In this document: in pieces, positions 2,203-15,754 of the stretch | Numbering within the stretch: the stretch's first letter is position 1 | Layout: each line of letters opens with the position of its first letter | IMG/VR virus record: IMGVR_UViG_3300033064_002438 | Coordinates: 1-20,494 of that record | Reading direction: 5' to 3' (one strand) | DNA from: a virus | Length of the DNA: 20,494 bases | Made by a program: the position numbers and the translations under genes | Notes under the pieces: model-generated | Databases searched by the model: none | Told to the model about the DNA's origin: nothing | What the model saw: the letters and a program-made list of their open reading frames with translations, nothing else

Positions 2203-2631
2203 ATGACTATTGATGAGTTCACAGACAATTGTGTGGCGAGAGCTCAAACTAAGGTTAGCTCTGTCGCTCCGGAGAACGTTGCCGGACCAGGGAACGTCGC
2301 AATCTTCGACTTCGGCTTGATTCTTGTCCCGCTGATCCAAACGGCGATCGAATTCATTGTCAGTAAACTGGCAAACTGTGGGCAGAACAACACTGAGAAG
2401 GTCAATCAGATCAACGACGGCAGTTTTAGCAGCCGATACATCGTCAATGTCGCGGTTCGTAAGGCTGCTGAAGAGACTGACATTCCGTGGGCGGCAAGGG
2501 GAGCAGCTCGCAATCTGGCAAAGACGGCAATCCTCGATGAAGCCAAGGAGACGGGAGATGATCAACTGCTTACCTTGTTTGGTGAGGGCGATTCTTACAG
2601 CTTCGATGCTCGTTCTGCCTGGGATTTCTGA
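2203..2631 (+). CDS. Unknown protein with internal hydrophobic helix
   Basis: 142 residues. ATG 2203 has an AAGGA site about 9 bases upstream, and the gene starts 11 bases after the peptidase gene. Visible features are a hydrophobic stretch around residues 34-54 (FDFGLILVPLIQTAIEFIV), long enough for a membrane or buried helix, and an acidic, Ala-rich helical C-terminal half. No recognised motif. Its place between a peptidase and an exported thioredoxin in a late operon suggests a virion or lysis-associated role, which is inference. Its 3' end overlaps the probable start of the next gene by about 50 bases in another frame. Confidence 0.65.
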   Translation: MTIDEFTDNCVARAQTKVSSVAPENVAGPGNVAIFDFGLILVPLIQTAIEFIVSKLANCGQNNTEKVNQINDGSFSSRYIVNVAVRKAAEETDIPWAARGAARNLAKTAILDEAKETGDDQLLTLFGEGDSYSFDARSAWDF

Positions 2632-3037
2632 GGGGAAGAGCTGGAACGTCTTCGAGTTCAATAGGAAAAGCGAAGCGGCGGCGGCATGGGCATTCACTGC
2701 TACTAAAGCGCTAAAGGTGAAAGTGCCGCCGCCCATCGCTGTCGTTAAGTCCGAGCGATCTCGTCGTATACTTCTACTAACGGCCACGTGGTGTGCTCCA
2801 TGTAAGGCTCTGATTGCAGACGCACAGCCGTGGCTTGAACGCGGTGGATGGGAAGTCGGAACGAGCAATACAGGCCACATCCAAATAATTGATGTGGATG
2901 AAAACCCAGGCATATGGGCAGCGGCGAAGGCCAAGTTCATCCCGCTCGCTATCCTTTTCGAGAATGGTAAGGAAGTTGGACGCGTTCAGAGTCCGACCCG
3001 GCAGGGGCTGGTTGATCTGTACAACGAAAAGAAATGA
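2582..3037 (+). CDS. Exported thioredoxin-like protein (WCAPC)
   Basis: A start at GTG 2582 gives 151 residues beginning MRAILTASMLVLPGISEG, a plausible signal peptide. The alternative ATG 2606 would remove its positive n-region. Neither has a strong ribosome site, so translation may be coupled to the upstream gene it overlaps. The thioredoxin fold is clear: beta strand RRILLLTAT, active site W70-C-A-P-C74-K, then FIPLAILF with cis-proline P121, and a GKEVGRV strand pair. The WCAPC motif indicates a disulfide reductase or oxidase. With a signal peptide it would act outside the cytoplasm, for example on disulfides of exported or virion proteins. The 3' end overlaps the TerL start (AAATGATGA). 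Confidence 0.82.
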   Translation: MRAILTASMLVLPGISEGKSWNVFEFNRKSEAAAAWAFTATKALKVKVPPPIAVVKSERSRRILLLTATWCAPCKALIADAQPWLERGGWEVGTSNTGHIQIIDVDENPGIWAAAKAKFIPLAILFENGKEVGRVQSPTRQGLVDLYNEKK

Positions 3038-6681: not shown

Positions 6682-7446
6682 CTACCCAATAACTAAAGGG
6701 ACCATGTAGCTCTTGCCGTCAACGATCGGCACGTTGATATGCAGGAACGTTCCATCTTTATTGACGAGCTGGAGACCGTACCCGTGAGACCAATCGGTCA
6801 AGCCAGTAAGCCCATAGTATGGCTGAATCTGACACAGACAGCCTGGGTTCCACGCACCAATCGCACCTTCCTTCACTGTTCGCTTAATGAATGTTTGAGC
6901 GCGGTGAGTGTGCCCGAAGACGACCGAACCACCAAAGATGTCAACCATTCTTGCGGCTGCGTGCTTTGCTGCCGTCGACCCGTGAGTAAAGTGGCATCGG
7001 CCCAGCTTGATTGTTCCGCGAATCGCAAGGCCGTGATGGAAGACTTCTTCCTTGTAGTATTGGATGCCTCGCTCGGCAATGTGCATTACGATCTCTGGCG
7101 ACAGTAGATCGTTCAGGTACTTCGCATCCTTCTCGTTTCGCAATACCTGAGTGACTATCCATCGCTCAATTCGGCGCTCGTGATTTCCGCACAGCATGTG
7201 GATTTTAGCGCGAGGAGCATTCTTCTGAACATGGTCAAGGAATTCGTTTGCTGCCATGATGTCGTGAGCGAACGAATATTTTGATTCGGCCACATAGCTC
7301 AGCGTGTGATGCTGTGCGAGGAACCCACCACAGTCCAGATGGTCGCCAAGCATCACAATCTCTTGAGGATTGATCTGCTTGAGGTCATGCAGGAATGCAG
7401 CCGCAGCCAGATGCTCAATCATACTGCCGTGCGTGTCGGGAATCAC
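6682..7446 (-). CDS. Calcineurin-like metallophosphoesterase (probably the C-terminal part of a frameshift product)
   Basis: 254 residues from GTG 7446, where the frame has its first standard start. All metal motifs are present: D4-x-H6 (PDTHG), GDHLDCGG (D35), GNHE (87-90), FTHG (H155) and GHTH (178-181). The family hydrolyses phosphomono- or diesters, often nucleotides or nucleic acid ends. The GTG start is odd: it falls inside the first core beta strand (FARVVIPDTHG) and has no suitably spaced ribosome site. The frame stays open upstream to 7539. Together with the slippery site at 7503-7509, this suggests translation as a -1 extension of the helix-turn-helix ORF, giving a fused protein of about 347 residues. 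Confidence 0.85.
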   Translation of the reverse strand: MIPDTHGSMIEHLAAAAFLHDLKQINPQEIVMLGDHLDCGGFLAQHHTLSYVAESKYSFAHDIMAANEFLDHVQKNAPRAKIHMLCGNHERRIERWIVTQVLRNEKDAKYLNDLLSPEIVMHIAERGIQYYKEEVFHHGLAIRGTIKLGRCHFTHGSTAAKHAAARMVDIFGGSVVFGHTHRAQTFIKRTVKEGAIGAWNPGCLCQIQPYYGLTGLTDWSHGYGLQLVNKDGTFLHINVPIVDGKSYMVPLVIG

Positions 7447-7490
7447 GACCCTTGCGAATGTTCCGGTCGGCTTGGGGATCGCCTTACTGG

Positions 7491-7724
7491 TTAGTGTCCG
7501 CTTCCCTTTGCGGAACGATTTGATCTGTTCAGTCTTTCAACAAGCAGCTCAAGCTCCCTCAGCCGTGACCGCAGCTGAGCACCAGGCAATGCATCAGGTA
7601 CAGCTCCTGGCCTGTCCAGCCTGTCCCTGAAGGCTGATCTCGAAATGCCTAGTAGTCTGGCAGCTTTCGATTTGTTTCCGTTAGTCTTATCGAGAGCAGC
7701 TAACGCCTCATCCTTGAGCGACAT
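7491..7724 (-). CDS. Fis-type helix-turn-helix protein, likely N-terminal part of phosphoesterase fusion
   Basis: 77 residues from ATG 7724. Residues 7-38 (ALAALDKTNGNKSKAARLLG, then ISRSAFRDRL) match the Fis/NtrC C-terminal HTH, with the typical NKSKAARLLGIS turn. A helical, charged segment (LRSRLRELELLVERLNR) follows, then a short tail SAKGSGH. Just before the stop, codons GCA AAG GGA contain the -1 slippery heptamer A AAG GGA. A slip there enters the open phosphoesterase frame. Alone, the product could be a small DNA-binding protein. Fused, the HTH would target the phosphoesterase to DNA. No strong ribosome site is seen. Confidence 0.75.
   Translation of the reverse strand: MSLKDEALAALDKTNGNKSKAARLLGISRSAFRDRLDRPGAVPDALPGAQLRSRLRELELLVERLNRSNRSAKGSGH
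7503..7509 (-). promoter_or_regulatory. Putative programmed -1 ribosomal frameshift site (A AAG GGA)
   Basis: On the - strand the heptamer A AAG GGA fits X XXY YYZ exactly in the HTH frame, four codons before that frame's TAA (7493-7491). After a slip, reading continues AAG CGG ACA and on, without a stop, into the phosphoesterase. The -1 frame is closed upstream at 7539-7537, so a slip must occur between 7539 and 7491. A possible stimulatory hairpin (CGACC with GGTCG) lies about 35 nt downstream, farther than is usual. The claim is inference from sequence and frame logic. Confidence 0.55.
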
Positions 7725-7744: not shown

Positions 7745-8251
7745 TCAATCCGTCATGAGCGAGAATAGAGTTTCTACGTTCCTCGTCATATCGCCCTCCC
7801 CTCTGTTGTTGTCGATCACAAAATCTGCACACGAAATGTCGAGACTGAAAGAGTCCGCAGGTTCTGGTTCTTCCCTCCTTGACGCGTCAACCCAGAACAC
7901 AAGGTCAACTAGCCCCTCTTCCCTGGCCGCTTCGAGCTCGACCCGAGACCGAATGCCAACGTACATGTCGTATTCACTGAAGATTTCCCGACTCAGCCTT
8001 GCTGGGTCGGTCAGGTTGTAAGAAGTGATCAGGCCATGCCAGAGAGCGCGGTGATTGCTCCGATCGTCGTAGCACTCCTGAACGGAAGCGTACCCAAGTA
8101 TCGGCCTCAACGCCTCATAGATGAACAGCCTTGCACAGAACATACTCGAAGACTCAAATGTGAGTCCAGTGACATCGCTGATGATTTGTGCCGCAGTGTC
8201 TTTTCCGTGCCGCCCATGTCCTACGACGTAAATCTTAGGCTTACTGTTCAT
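7745..8251 (-). CDS. P-loop nucleoside monophosphate kinase-like protein
   Basis: 168 residues. Walker A GHGRHGKDT (11-19) has the GKDT ending typical of phage deoxynucleoside monophosphate kinases. A later VDLVFWVDASRRE resembles their second strand and arginine-containing lid region, and CADFVIDNN near the C-terminus is typical of this fold (adenosine/dephospho-CoA kinase-like). The likely role is phosphorylating dNMPs for phage DNA synthesis; the substrate, including a modified nucleotide, cannot be read. The start overlaps the stop of the upstream sulfotransferase-methyltransferase gene (ATGA). Confidence 0.75.
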   Translation of the reverse strand: MNSKPKIYVVGHGRHGKDTAAQIISDVTGLTFESSSMFCARLFIYEALRPILGYASVQECYDDRSNHRALWHGLITSYNLTDPARLSREIFSEYDMYVGIRSRVELEAAREEGLVDLVFWVDASRREEPEPADSFSLDISCADFVIDNNRGEGDMTRNVETLFSLMTD

Positions 8252-9336
8252 GATGCCACTTTCTGTACAGTCATCTGGTAGTCATTGTCATTGGATAAAC
8301 GCTGGAACCTACCTGGTTTCGAGGCCAGGAATTCATCCACCGATACTTTCACTTCCGGACACTCGGTTGGAATGTCCTTGCCGCCATAATCGTCCCATAT
8401 GACGATTCCGCCAGGCCCGATAACGTCCCAGGCTAACGTTGTGTCGTTGGTGCAGTTTGCGTAGTCGTGTGCCCCATCTACATGCACGACATCGTATTTC
8501 CGATCACGGACACGCAGCCGCGAATCAAGCAGTCGATGCTTCCCTTCACTTACGAAACTGATATTCCTTTCAGCACGATACCTCGGATTCATTACCCATA
8601 TGTCATGCCCAGTGTACGTGCTGCATGGGTGGTGCAGTAACTCGTCAAAGAACGAGACTGCGCCGCCGCCTTCGCATACGCCAATTTCAAGGACATGGAC
8701 CGGCCTTCCCCTTAGCCTTGGTATGCAGTATTTGCGAATCGTGTCCTTCAGCCAGCCCGAATAGTCTTTACTGAACGAGAATTGAACCCCATCCGGAATC
8801 TCGTACCCATACCGTTCGCAGAAAGTCATGTTGTCGCAATTGAAGGCGTCCCCCGTTTCCTTCTGAGCGTATTCCTGGTAACTGTTCGTTCCGTTCACGT
8901 TGTCCCGGATCGGCAACTCCAGACCAAACTGACTAAGCAGGTTCTCTGATTCGGACATGAGGTGCTCGTACTTGATGATGAAGTCCGCACCAGCCGTAAA
9001 GCCCTCTTCGAAATCACTACAGATTCCGTGATGATTCCTGATAATATTGCCCATGTAAACATCAACCGAATTATCGGTACACCTATCGAGCACGTCCTTT
9101 TCTGAATGCCACCCCGAATGGTGTTTTCGATACCTGAATAAGCTTTGGATCCATGACGACGGCTCCCGCACGATCGTGACGATCTGGAGATCCTTAAACT
9201 CTTCCGGGATGTCCGAAATCTTTCCGTGCGGCAGGACATCAATAACCTTTGTCTGGCTTTCAACGTTCTCTCGGAAGAACGTACCGCCAGTACGTGGAAA
9301 GTGACTGAAGACAAACTTCCCTGGTACGACCCACAT
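8248..9336 (-). CDS. Sulfotransferase-like / class I methyltransferase fusion protein
   Basis: 362 residues, ATG 9336 with GAAGGGA upstream. N-terminal part (about 5-150): FSHFPRTGGTFF (10-21) is the 5'-phosphosulfate loop of PAPS sulfotransferases, and REPSSWIQS (57-65) the 3'-phosphate motif. C-terminal part (about 190-360): SAM motif I VLEIGVCEGGG (215-225), VVHVDGAHDY (283-292) and GPGGIVIWDDYG (308-318), matching the Methyltransf_24 type acting on small molecules or sugars. Expected activities are sulfate transfer from PAPS and methylation from SAM. It lies 11 bases after a glycosyltransferase gene, so glycan decoration is a reasonable inference. The sulfotransferase domain is short and could bind rather than catalyse. 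Confidence 0.8.
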   Translation of the reverse strand: MWVVPGKFVFSHFPRTGGTFFRENVESQTKVIDVLPHGKISDIPEEFKDLQIVTIVREPSSWIQSLFRYRKHHSGWHSEKDVLDRCTDNSVDVYMGNIIRNHHGICSDFEEGFTAGADFIIKYEHLMSESENLLSQFGLELPIRDNVNGTNSYQEYAQKETGDAFNCDNMTFCERYGYEIPDGVQFSFSKDYSGWLKDTIRKYCIPRLRGRPVHVLEIGVCEGGGAVSFFDELLHHPCSTYTGHDIWVMNPRYRAERNISFVSEGKHRLLDSRLRVRDRKYDVVHVDGAHDYANCTNDTTLAWDVIGPGGIVIWDDYGGKDIPTECPEVKVSVDEFLASKPGRFQRLSNDNDYQMTVQKVAS

Positions 9337-9347
9337 TTAGGATCCCT

Positions 9348-10790
9348 TCAGAATATCGAGTAGGTACTTTTAGTGAGCGGGCTGTCTTTGTTATCCACGT
9401 GGCTTGCCGTGACGCCAGGGTCGATGACGTACTCACCCCATCCGTCCATTTCTACATCCTCAGCGAACGCGGGGTCTTCGCTTCTCGGCTTGCCATGCTC
9501 TTTTCGGGACACTCCCCAGCGGAACTGATATCGCTCGCACAGAACACGACTCAACAGCTGGTATCCGCACGTTCCCCAGGAGCATGTAAACTGCTTCCCG
9601 TGGTACGGGAGCCGTCTGCCGAACGTCATTTCGACATTCCCGTGCTCGCCTCGGCCATGAACGAACCCGCCGCACATTGCCGTCTGAATCTTGATCAGAT
9701 TCTTGAGTCCATACTCAGAATCGACAGAGATATCAGAGTCAATGAACAGTAGATGCGTGTATTCTTTGTTGATCCTCATCAGGTCGAGGCACATGTTTCG
9801 ACCGGCAATAATGCGAGGGAGACGATACAGCTGGTCCTGATCGTTTACTGGCGTTTCCGGTAGAGCGCACTGAGTACCGATCGTCCAGTTCGTAATTGAA
9901 TCGAAATTATGATCAGGTGGCGTGTTTCCCTCGTAGTTCACGTGGGCATGGCTAACGCCACGCAGCCTTCGAATCGATTCGATACCGGCATTCGAGTACG
10001 ACTTCCGGTCGCACGACAGCACACAGGCCAGCACCTTCACCTTCTCAAGGAATGAACTCTGGCCATCTCTTAGCGACGCTTGATAATCAAGATTCAGCCG
10101 CTTGAATGTGCTTGACTCGTGCAGGTGATCGGCGAATGCATTAGTACTGAGTAGGAGATGCCATCCAGCCTGGGTTGCCCTGAGGTTCCACTCGTCGTCA
10201 GCGAACAGGCCGGAAGCGAAGTTCTCTTCATCGAGATATCCGATCTCACTCAGAACCTTCGTTCGGACCATAATGCACGTCCATGGGATGTGCGTCCGCT
10301 TCTGAGGTGGAGTCTTGAACTTCATCACCACGTCTTCCCGCTCTTCCGGGGTGCGGATGGTCGAGAAGACGTTGTTGCACTTGGAAATCCTGCGTGCGTA
10401 CGGACTCTCAATACTGCACTTTCCGGCATCACTGGTCAACGGACAGACAGCAGCGGCCATCGAATCGGCAGCAAGATCCCTCAGCAGGTTCTCGACAGCA
10501 AAACGCCCGACTTCGCAATCATTATTAACCACGAACGAGTAGAGTGTTTCAGCAAGGCGAAGCCCAGTGTTCACGGCACCACTGAATCCGACGCCACCTG
10601 ATGTAGATACTAGCTGACAGCACACAGTCTTTGCTGTTGCAGCCACCAGCTTGTTTAGCTTAATGGACGGTGATTCGTCCGACACAATGATTATCTTCTG
10701 TGGCCTCTTCGAGCCGGAAAGCACCCTGGAGACACATCTCTCAGTCAGGTCGTCCCCCTGCCGAGTCGGAATCACGACTGTTACTGACAC
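9348..10790 (-). CDS. Two-domain family 2 (GT-A) glycosyltransferase
   Basis: 480 residues, GTG 10790 preceded by AGAGGG. Domain 1 (1-240): VTVVIPTRQGD, IIIVSDES, the GVGFSGAVNTGL pattern of rhamnosyl/GT2 enzymes, NND (89-91) in place of DxD, and an ADDEW acidic motif (197-201). Domain 2 (252-480): VLACVLSCDRKSY, IIAGRNMCLDL, the DxD motif LLFIDSDIS (348-355), and EDVEM (444-448) with H464. Such enzymes transfer a sugar from a nucleotide sugar. Two domains suggest two linkages by one chain. Domain 1 lacks the second Asp, so it may be weak or metal-independent. No membrane segment. Likely works with the neighbouring GT4 and sulfo/methyltransferase genes. Confidence 0.88.
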   Translation of the reverse strand: MSVTVVIPTRQGDDLTERCVSRVLSGSKRPQKIIIVSDESPSIKLNKLVAATAKTVCCQLVSTSGGVGFSGAVNTGLRLAETLYSFVVNNDCEVGRFAVENLLRDLAADSMAAAVCPLTSDAGKCSIESPYARRISKCNNVFSTIRTPEEREDVVMKFKTPPQKRTHIPWTCIMVRTKVLSEIGYLDEENFASGLFADDEWNLRATQAGWHLLLSTNAFADHLHESSTFKRLNLDYQASLRDGQSSFLEKVKVLACVLSCDRKSYSNAGIESIRRLRGVSHAHVNYEGNTPPDHNFDSITNWTIGTQCALPETPVNDQDQLYRLPRIIAGRNMCLDLMRINKEYTHLLFIDSDISVDSEYGLKNLIKIQTAMCGGFVHGRGEHGNVEMTFGRRLPYHGKQFTCSWGTCGYQLLSRVLCERYQFRWGVSRKEHGKPRSEDPAFAEDVEMDGWGEYVIDPGVTASHVDNKDSPLTKSTYSIF

Positions 10791-11441: not shown

Positions 11442-11772
11442 CGGAGTCTTCGCCGGTATCCGTATCGGCGGCTCCATCAGCAGGCGTCGTTTCTTCGATG
11501 TCAGTTGAGGCTCCTTCCTCTACTTGTTCAATTACGCTGGCGACCGCAGCTTCATGATGCGGATCGTCAGTCTTTTCGATACGTCGCACGAGATCGTTCA
11601 GCAGGTCAGCGTGCTTCAAAAGCCACACATTGGCGGCGAGTTCGCCGTCCGGATGGTATGTGCCAACGACGCTATATTCTCCAGAAGGATCAATAGCAAC
11701 ATACTTGCCTTCGACATCGACGCAAACAGGGCCAACAGCGTTAGACAGCGAACAATCAATCAATACGTCCAT
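11413..11772 (-). CDS. Unknown protein with strongly acidic C-terminal tail
   Basis: 119 residues, ATG 11772 with AAGGA upstream, overlapping the GT4 gene's end. The N-terminal 65 residues look like a compact beta domain (VCVDVEGKYVAIDPSGEYSVVG, then HPDGELAANVWLLKHADLL). The last 45 are low-complexity Asp/Glu/Thr (TDTGEDSDEDDDQTLS). Acidic tails occur on chaperone-like, DNA-mimic or capsid proteins, but no choice is justified here. Placed between two glycosyltransferase-side genes. Confidence 0.65.
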   Translation of the reverse strand: MDVLIDCSLSNAVGPVCVDVEGKYVAIDPSGEYSVVGTYHPDGELAANVWLLKHADLLNDLVRRIEKTDDPHHEAAVASVIEQVEEGASTDIEETTPADGAADTDTGEDSDEDDDQTLS

Positions 11773-12703
11773 TCGTCAATTCCTTGTAGCAGAAGGGTTT
11801 GGGAGTTACCCCGGAAATCAGTAACTCGAACACCCTGAAAAACAGCTTCGATCGTTCGATCCATGACCAATCTCTGAGGCTTTCCAGAACATTCGCAGAC
11901 ATCTCTTCGATGTTATCGAAAGCATAATCAATGCCACGCTCAAAGGCTTTGATGTTCCTGTCGACGAATACGCAGTTCGATTCATGCTCGCCGAACTCCA
12001 TCAGGTTTCCGACTCGGGTCGTGACAGGGACCAATCCGCACGCCATCGCTTCCAGCACGTAGTTTGGCGTGGCCTCAGTAACTGAAGAGCAGAGTACAAC
12101 TCTTGCCGAGTTGCACCAAGCTCGCATAGTCGCTGTATCCCAGACTCGATGCCTGATCGGGTTTCCCATGGAGTCCCAGTCGGAACCGCGAATGGGATGC
12201 AGGATAATTCCCCTATCGCCCCCTCGTACGTCGAATCTGTCCTGAAGCGGACACAGGATTTCGCGATACCCTTTGGCTTCTGTTCCTGTCCAGACGGCGT
12301 AGTTCCTTCTGTTTCCGATCGGTCGGACTGGGTAGAACTCATCGAAATCGACCCCATTTGATATGTTGCACGTCTTCGGCACCCTGCCGTAGTGATCGAA
12401 GGCTTCCTGATTGTTCATGATGACGAAGTCGGCAAACCTCAGCGACATCTCGAACCGGTCCTTGACTCGGCGATGGTCGGCGTTGTGCGAATTGACAAGC
12501 AGCGTCTTCTTGCACAGAGCTTTGATCACGGGAGTCAACGAGTACTCAAGGTTGAAGACCAGGTCGTAACTGTCAACTCCGCTGAGCGACTTCGAGTACT
12601 GAATATCAACTTCGAATCCGTCCGGCGCATTCTTCTGCAGTGCTTTCGCGCGACGCTCGTAGGCCCAGCCTGGAACGTCAGCAATAATCAGGATTCGTGC
12701 CAC
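11756..12703 (-). CDS. GT-B glycosyltransferase (GT4/group 1 type)
   Basis: 315 residues. GTG 12703 is preceded by AGAGGAAC. Typical group 1 features are ILIIADVPGWAYERRAKAL at the N-terminus, NISNGVDFDEFYP (113-125) at the domain hinge, and the donor-binding E-x7-E motif SSVTEATPNYVLEAMACG (206-223; E210, E218) followed by PVTTRVGNL. The family transfers a sugar from a nucleotide sugar, with retention. No membrane helix. Compared with typical 360-400 residue members it is slightly short but complete. It overlaps the downstream acidic-tail gene and the upstream HNH-like gene. Confidence 0.9.
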   Translation of the reverse strand: MARILIIADVPGWAYERRAKALQKNAPDGFEVDIQYSKSLSGVDSYDLVFNLEYSLTPVIKALCKKTLLVNSHNADHRRVKDRFEMSLRFADFVIMNNQEAFDHYGRVPKTCNISNGVDFDEFYPVRPIGNRRNYAVWTGTEAKGYREILCPLQDRFDVRGGDRGIILHPIRGSDWDSMGNPIRHRVWDTATMRAWCNSARVVLCSSVTEATPNYVLEAMACGLVPVTTRVGNLMEFGEHESNCVFVDRNIKAFERGIDYAFDNIEEMSANVLESLRDWSWIERSKLFFRVFELLISGVTPKPFCYKELTNGRID

Positions 12704-14760: not shown

Positions 14761-14951
14761 CTACGGTTCTCCTTCATCAATTTGAGTAACGCCCTGACAT
14801 GCTTACATCCGTGTGAATCCAACCCTTCTCGCTTCCATTCGTGGTTACCGCAATCACACTTCCCGTACGTCATGTCGATCCCGTACTTCTCGCCGGTATA
14901 CAGGTTCTTCAAGTGGAACTCACGCTCGCTCAGCCGCCAACAGCGGTACAC
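14757..14951 (-). CDS. Small SWIM-type zinc-finger protein
   Basis: 64 residues from GTG 14951. The frame is open to 15116, but the upstream part is antisense-like filler inside the glycosyltransferase gene, so a GTG start overlapping that gene by 22 bases is preferred. No ribosome site is visible, which suggests coupling. The SWIM pattern C-x-C-x14-C-x-H is exact: KCDCGNHEW (C32, C34) and GCKHVRALL (C49, H51). SWIM domains bind zinc and join proteins or DNA. Function here is unknown. Confidence 0.65.
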   Translation of the reverse strand: MYRCWRLSEREFHLKNLYTGEKYGIDMTYGKCDCGNHEWKREGLDSHGCKHVRALLKLMKENRR

Positions 14952-15754
14952 GACAGGAAATCCGTTAGGCCTTGGTATTCGGATAAGGAATGGGGGTTCT
15001 TCCTGAAAGCTTCCTGTGCTTCGAGTCTCGCCCGCTTCACCCGCATTACCAAGTCCCATTGAGCGCCCCAGTACCCATCCTTGAGGTGAAGTGCAGCCCC
15101 GTCCCGCTCTGACCATTCGCCATTAGGGTTCGTCAGTCGAGTCAGTTCCGTGTCGGTCGCCGGTAGTGCTTTCCATAGCCCGTAGAACGTCGTGAAGATT
15201 CTATCGCCAAACCGCCTGAAGTCATCCATCGTTACGATCTGATTCTGCAGCAGATACCGGAACGCATTGACTGGCCAGCTCCGATTGAACAGGCAGCCGT
15301 ACCCAACATTCACGTACGGTGGCGTGTAGGCCGTCTGGTATTGGCTCCCTGCGACGGGTATCTGGCAAATGATGTTCTTGTTGTCCCACTGATCAATGAG
15401 TTTCTGCCAGCCATCCGGAGTCACCACGTAATCGTCATCAACCGAAGCGATAACATTCGACGCTGTCGGAAAGTCAATCGTCACGTATCTCGCAAGGGTC
15501 TTGACGTTTCTCGTCCCTCGATACAGCCGCACCTTTCCGTCTTTGCGTAGTTCCTGGATGCTTCCGTAGCACTTGCTCAAGTACTCGTCGCTACACCAGT
15601 TGTCAGCAATGATGACCCTGTCGAATCCGAAGTCCAGCATCGAATCAACTATCAATGGCACATTCCACGGCCTGGCGTAGCTTACAATCATTCCAGTAAC
15701 GTGTTTTGCTTCGACCTTCCGTATCAAGTCGGGCCTGAATGTCGTTTTGAACAA
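14930..15754 (-). CDS. GT-A fold glycosyltransferase-like protein
   Basis: 274 residues. The start is TTG 15754, with the previous gene's stop 3 bases upstream. The N-terminal strand GMIVSYARPWNVPLIV and FDRVIIADNWCSD look like the nucleotide-sugar domain. SVDDDYVVTPDGW holds the DxD motif (D106-D108) used with a metal ion. The rest (PYVNVGYGCLFNRS, DRIFTTFYGL, then LHLKDGYWG) is typical of GT-A acceptor halves. It has no membrane segment. It is separated from the main sugar group (8.2-12.7 kb) by six small genes, so its acceptor may differ. Confidence 0.78.
   Translation of the reverse strand: MFKTTFRPDLIRKVEAKHVTGMIVSYARPWNVPLIVDSMLDFGFDRVIIADNWCSDEYLSKCYGSIQELRKDGKVRLYRGTRNVKTLARYVTIDFPTASNVIASVDDDYVVTPDGWQKLIDQWDNKNIICQIPVAGSQYQTAYTPPYVNVGYGCLFNRSWPVNAFRYLLQNQIVTMDDFRRFGDRIFTTFYGLWKALPATDTELTRLTNPNGEWSERDGAALHLKDGYWGAQWDLVMRVKRARLEAQEAFRKNPHSLSEYQGLTDFLSCTAVGG

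Follow-up and report, generated by a model that had tools for sequence, protein, structure and literature searches.

Two overlapping reading frames of a phage contig, an HTH ORF and a metallophosphoesterase frame, are very probably the two halves of one phage protein, judging from homology. The window, that is, the whole stretch analysed, comprises 20,494 nucleotides (IMG/VR record IMGVR_UViG_3300033064_002438). In our model, one gene on the minus strand (7724-6682) would encode a protein of about 347 residues made up of a Fis-type HTH, a coiled-coil helix, a basic linker and a calcineurin-like metallophosphoesterase, and its reading frame would be broken once in the record by a net -1 shift inside 7536-7491. 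We consider it likely that the gene is normally continuous and that this single -1 break comes from a small change of length within the A/G-rich linker, due to a sequence or assembly error or to a recent indel. The features of the locus, including those defined by comparison with the relative L093 (see below), are as follows.

7724-7491, minus strand: N-terminal HTH half, 77 aa, with a TAA stop at 7493-7491; Pfam HTH_8, E 2e-10
7536 to 6682, minus strand: phosphoesterase frame, -1 relative to the HTH ORF, open from 7536 (past the TGA at 7539-7537) to the stop at 6684-6682
7536-7491, minus strand: overlap of the two open frames, 15 codons by ORF reading, within which the frame change must fall
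7509-7503, minus strand: heptamer A AAG GGA, of the X XXY YYZ form, in the HTH frame (codons GCA AAG GGA)
7447-7503, minus strand: basic linker KRTLTSKAIPKPTGTFARV in the -1 frame, homologous to the L093 linker
6682-7449, minus strand: metallophosphoesterase domain; phrog_221, E 5e-23; Metallophos_2, E 2e-7; 66% identity to L093

The HTH ORF contains a Fis-type HTH at residues 9-38, followed by the start of a charged coiled-coil helix. The metallophosphoesterase domain carries the catalytic motifs DTH, GDH, GNHE and GHTH, and an alignment of relatives recovered the whole calcineurin-like signature (D-x-H, GD, GNH(E), H, GHTH) as invariant D97, H99, G127-D128, N181, H182, H248, H272 and H274. 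A -1 slip at A AAG GGA gives a joined protein of 347 residues. The coordinates of both parts, the -1 offset, the phase of the heptamer and this total, all given by the first-pass annotation, were recomputed and found to be correct. Its doubt about GTG 7446 was also justified: this codon, the earliest ATG, GTG or TTG of the -1 frame, sits within the first core strand (V-V-I-P-D-T-H-G), with an AAGGG just 2 bases ahead. A second frame oddity may exist on the plus strand of the window, where a frame with a thioredoxin domain and the ORF ahead of it overlap in different frames (2203-2631 and 2357-3037).

A scan with an alignment of relatives identified L093, a 45-kb IMG/VR contig (IMGVR_UViG_3300009130_001184) in which Fis HTH, coiled coil, basic linker and phosphoesterase are encoded by a single uninterrupted ORF of 348 residues; HTH_8 and Metallophos were both detected in it. 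The joined window protein is collinear with the L093 protein, with the same order of parts, nearly the same length (347 versus 348 aa) and 58% identity across residues 9-343, nearly the whole protein. Unlike the window gene, L093 is one ORF, lacking both A AAG GGA and the frame offset. When the HTH ORF was compared with the L093 N-terminus, none of 5000 shuffles aligned as well. For the linker read in the -1 frame (7503-7447), the score against the L093 linker was 38, a value matched or bettered by 1 of 5000 shuffles; the remaining two frames of the same DNA scored 14 each. This homology extends upstream of GTG 7446 and past the HTH stop, and hence coding in the -1 frame starts before GTG 7446, probably inside the overlap. 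A homologue with both parts in one ORF, the search for which had been proposed with the first reading of this DNA, therefore exists over the full joined length; together with the linker homology upstream of GTG 7446, it supports the proposal that HTH, helix, linker and phosphoesterase form one protein.

A scan with the phosphoesterase only returned 80 relatives with 43-57% identity. In those whose contig spans the region, a coiled coil and a basic linker precede the phosphoesterase in the same frame, without a fused HTH. The window phosphoesterase retains 59 of the 65 columns that are invariant in 14 relatives. Near-identical phage copies were sought by HTH, kinase-like, terminase and L093 searches and by a scan with a degenerate HHTLSYVAE pattern, in which only L093 showed the architecture; the record of a terminase relative, L091 (64%), contained no match to the joined protein. 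An HTH match in L082 was set aside, as it lies at a contig end on the strand opposite to a long tail-like ORF. The window gene thus has the collinear parts of a phage HTH-phosphoesterase fusion of the L093 type, matching phrog_221, and in the record its frame is interrupted within 7536-7491. None of the relatives compared shares the out-of-frame junction of the window sequence.

HTH and phosphoesterase also occur as neighbours rather than as a fusion. In L061, L062, L066 and L069, the coil-phosphoesterase gene starts at or beside the end of a separate HTH-like gene, which indicates that separate HTH and phosphoesterase genes exist in the family. The window could also hold a 77-aa HTH protein and a phosphoesterase translated on its own, from GTG 7446 or from a non-standard start by re-initiation after the TAA at 7493-7491. 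We regard this as very improbable. The phosphoesterase gene of the same four relatives starts well ahead of the core strand and takes in the coil and the linker, and the corresponding parts lie, in the window, in the HTH frame. A start at GTG 7446 would, moreover, truncate the first strand. Independent starts at GTG 7446 or at ATC 7479 were rejected on the basis of the -1-frame linker homology upstream and the poor Shine-Dalgarno spacing. A separately started phosphoesterase in close relatives had been named in the first-pass annotation as a result that would refute the proposed frameshift joining the two parts. This is borne out in so far as the coil-phosphoesterase of most relatives has a start codon to itself; this codon, however, precedes the coil and is located some 58-85 codons upstream of the core strand.

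The first-pass annotation had further proposed a programmed -1 frameshift at the junction, with two products. If restricted to this lineage, such a frameshift at A AAG GGA would let most ribosomes make a 77-residue HTH-coil regulator and a minority the 347-residue fusion. The homology to L093 indicates that the fusion itself is real, and the heptamer has the correct form and phase within the overlap. Across the plausible genes of the window, 0.17% of codons carry an in-frame X XXY YYZ heptamer; one would therefore be met by chance in the 13 usable codons of the overlap in about 2% of cases, a rarity that is suggestive but not decisive. The window heptamer contains A_AAG, which in E. coli is the shiftiest tetramer, and most heptamers shift above background in that species; however, codons of the GGN type in the A site shift less on average than AAN and UUN, and without a stimulator the three best heptamers themselves do not go beyond about 0.3%, E. 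coli figures that serve only as a guide for this phage (PMC4066793). When the position of the frame change was scored on hybrids of the two frames, the profile of the relatives preferred, by 2-4 bits, a site at 7512-7503, where the heptamer lies, whereas L093 alone weakly favoured 7539-7530, the two references differing by a few bits. The A3G3 run that forms the heptamer is also a likely spot for a length change.

Comparison with the relatives did not bear out a programmed site. This heptamer is absent from the linker of L093 and of 28 other diverse relatives, and the frame offset was seen in none of the relatives, which read through the linker region in one frame; neither is thus conserved, a check that had been suggested together with the proposal. 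The 1160 codons of these 29 relatives contained a single, different heptamer, an in-frame G GGA AAG in the single-ORF relative L166, whose linker sequence PKGKRT resembles the joined AKGKRT spanning the frame break of the window. Downstream of the heptamer, stretches of 93 and 121 bases fold worse than the average shuffle (z +1.32 and +0.87), a crude scan revealed no H-type pseudoknot, and inspection by eye just upstream showed no SD-like (GGAG-like) stimulator. The -1 frameshift cassettes of the IS3 family and of dnaX share with the window an X XXY YYZ-type heptamer within a two-frame overlap; the window site differs from them in that a stimulatory structure, an SD-like element and conservation were not found. 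Given the unconserved heptamer and offset and the lack of a detected stimulator, we judge a lineage-specific frameshift to be unlikely. If true, it would represent recoding that arose recently and away from its usual settings (transposases, dnaX and tail genes), giving an HTH-coil regulator and a full HTH-phosphoesterase from a phage DNA-metabolism gene that relatives read straight through.

These results are most consistent with a continuous gene that has been broken once, the cause being, we infer, an error or an indel. Singleton frame breaks validated by BLAST but without clustered relatives are expected to be mainly sequencing errors or indels (Antonov et al., PMC3711429). The family includes inactivated copies: in L045 and L046, which come from two samples, a shared Trp-to-stop change interrupts the phosphoesterase domain, L040 being otherwise identical over 1174 bases. 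A real defect in the window gene would therefore be unsurprising. Both halves look intact, with the invariant columns largely kept, suggesting that the break is an error or happened very recently. The same apparent integrity of the two halves, as read from their sequence, also counts against an error or indel, as do the presence of a well-formed heptamer within a 15-codon overlap, with its low chance expectation, and the placement of the frame change on that heptamer by the profile of the relatives. If the break is an error, the phage would make the whole protein through ordinary translation; if it is real, a 77-residue HTH-coil fragment would be made with little or no phosphoesterase.

A single-protein annotation is accordingly appropriate for the HTH ORF and the phosphoesterase, and the window gene provides a second example, if a broken one, of a Fis-HTH fused to a phage phosphoesterase of the L093 type. 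It also calls for caution: when the nearest relative reads through, a short overlap containing a heptamer that looks slippery does not suffice for a recoding call.

A structural model of the L093 protein (mean pLDDT 82.6, pTM 0.73) comprises HTH helices at residues 3-41, a helix at 51-77 and the phosphoesterase from residue 94. The frame break of the window maps to about the end of the 51-77 helix. The intact protein would probably dimerise via the coil, with the HTH and basic linker holding DNA and so probably placing a two-metal phosphodiesterase on it. In the window, a dNMP-kinase-like gene lies upstream and a nuclease gene follows after 3 bases on the downstream side; genes for a sliding clamp and a helicase are found elsewhere. 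With these genes around it, the phosphoesterase would belong to a phage DNA metabolism operon, and the most reasonable guess is that it functions in the DNA metabolism of the phage as a DNA-tethered two-metal phosphodiesterase. This 20-kb phage contig also encodes, on the minus strand, three glycosyltransferases (9348-10790, GT2; 11756-12703, GT group 1; 14930-15754, GT2) and an ORF (8248-9336) in which a sulfotransferase-like N-terminus (FPRTGGTFF, by eye) is fused to Methyltransf_24 (PF13578). No tRNA or Rfam matches were obtained within the window.

Profile searches of PDB sequences gave no match. With the L093 model, Foldseek retrieved Mre11/SbcD, PolD DP1, Vps29 and other calcineurin-like enzymes (about 10-15% identity, TM-score 0.29-0.44 over the model), as well as phage phosphoesterases, that of ISF9 among them. 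The core fold is thus common to the L093 model and the Mre11/SbcD, PolD DP1 and Vps29 type, the matches over the whole model being weak. The likeness to the SbcD/Mre11 nuclease, whose hallmarks include a capping domain and a Rad50/SbcC partner, is one of fold. The same catalytic domain as in the window protein is found in phrog_221 and phrog_20266, which include proteins of Verrucomicrobia phage P8625 and Microbacterium phage ISF9. Both of these proteins are encoded by single ORFs and share only about 24-29% identity with the window protein, but like it they carry an N-terminal extension, which in ISF9 reads as an HTH by eye, and in P8625 a dNMP kinase gene adjoins the phosphoesterase gene, as in the window.
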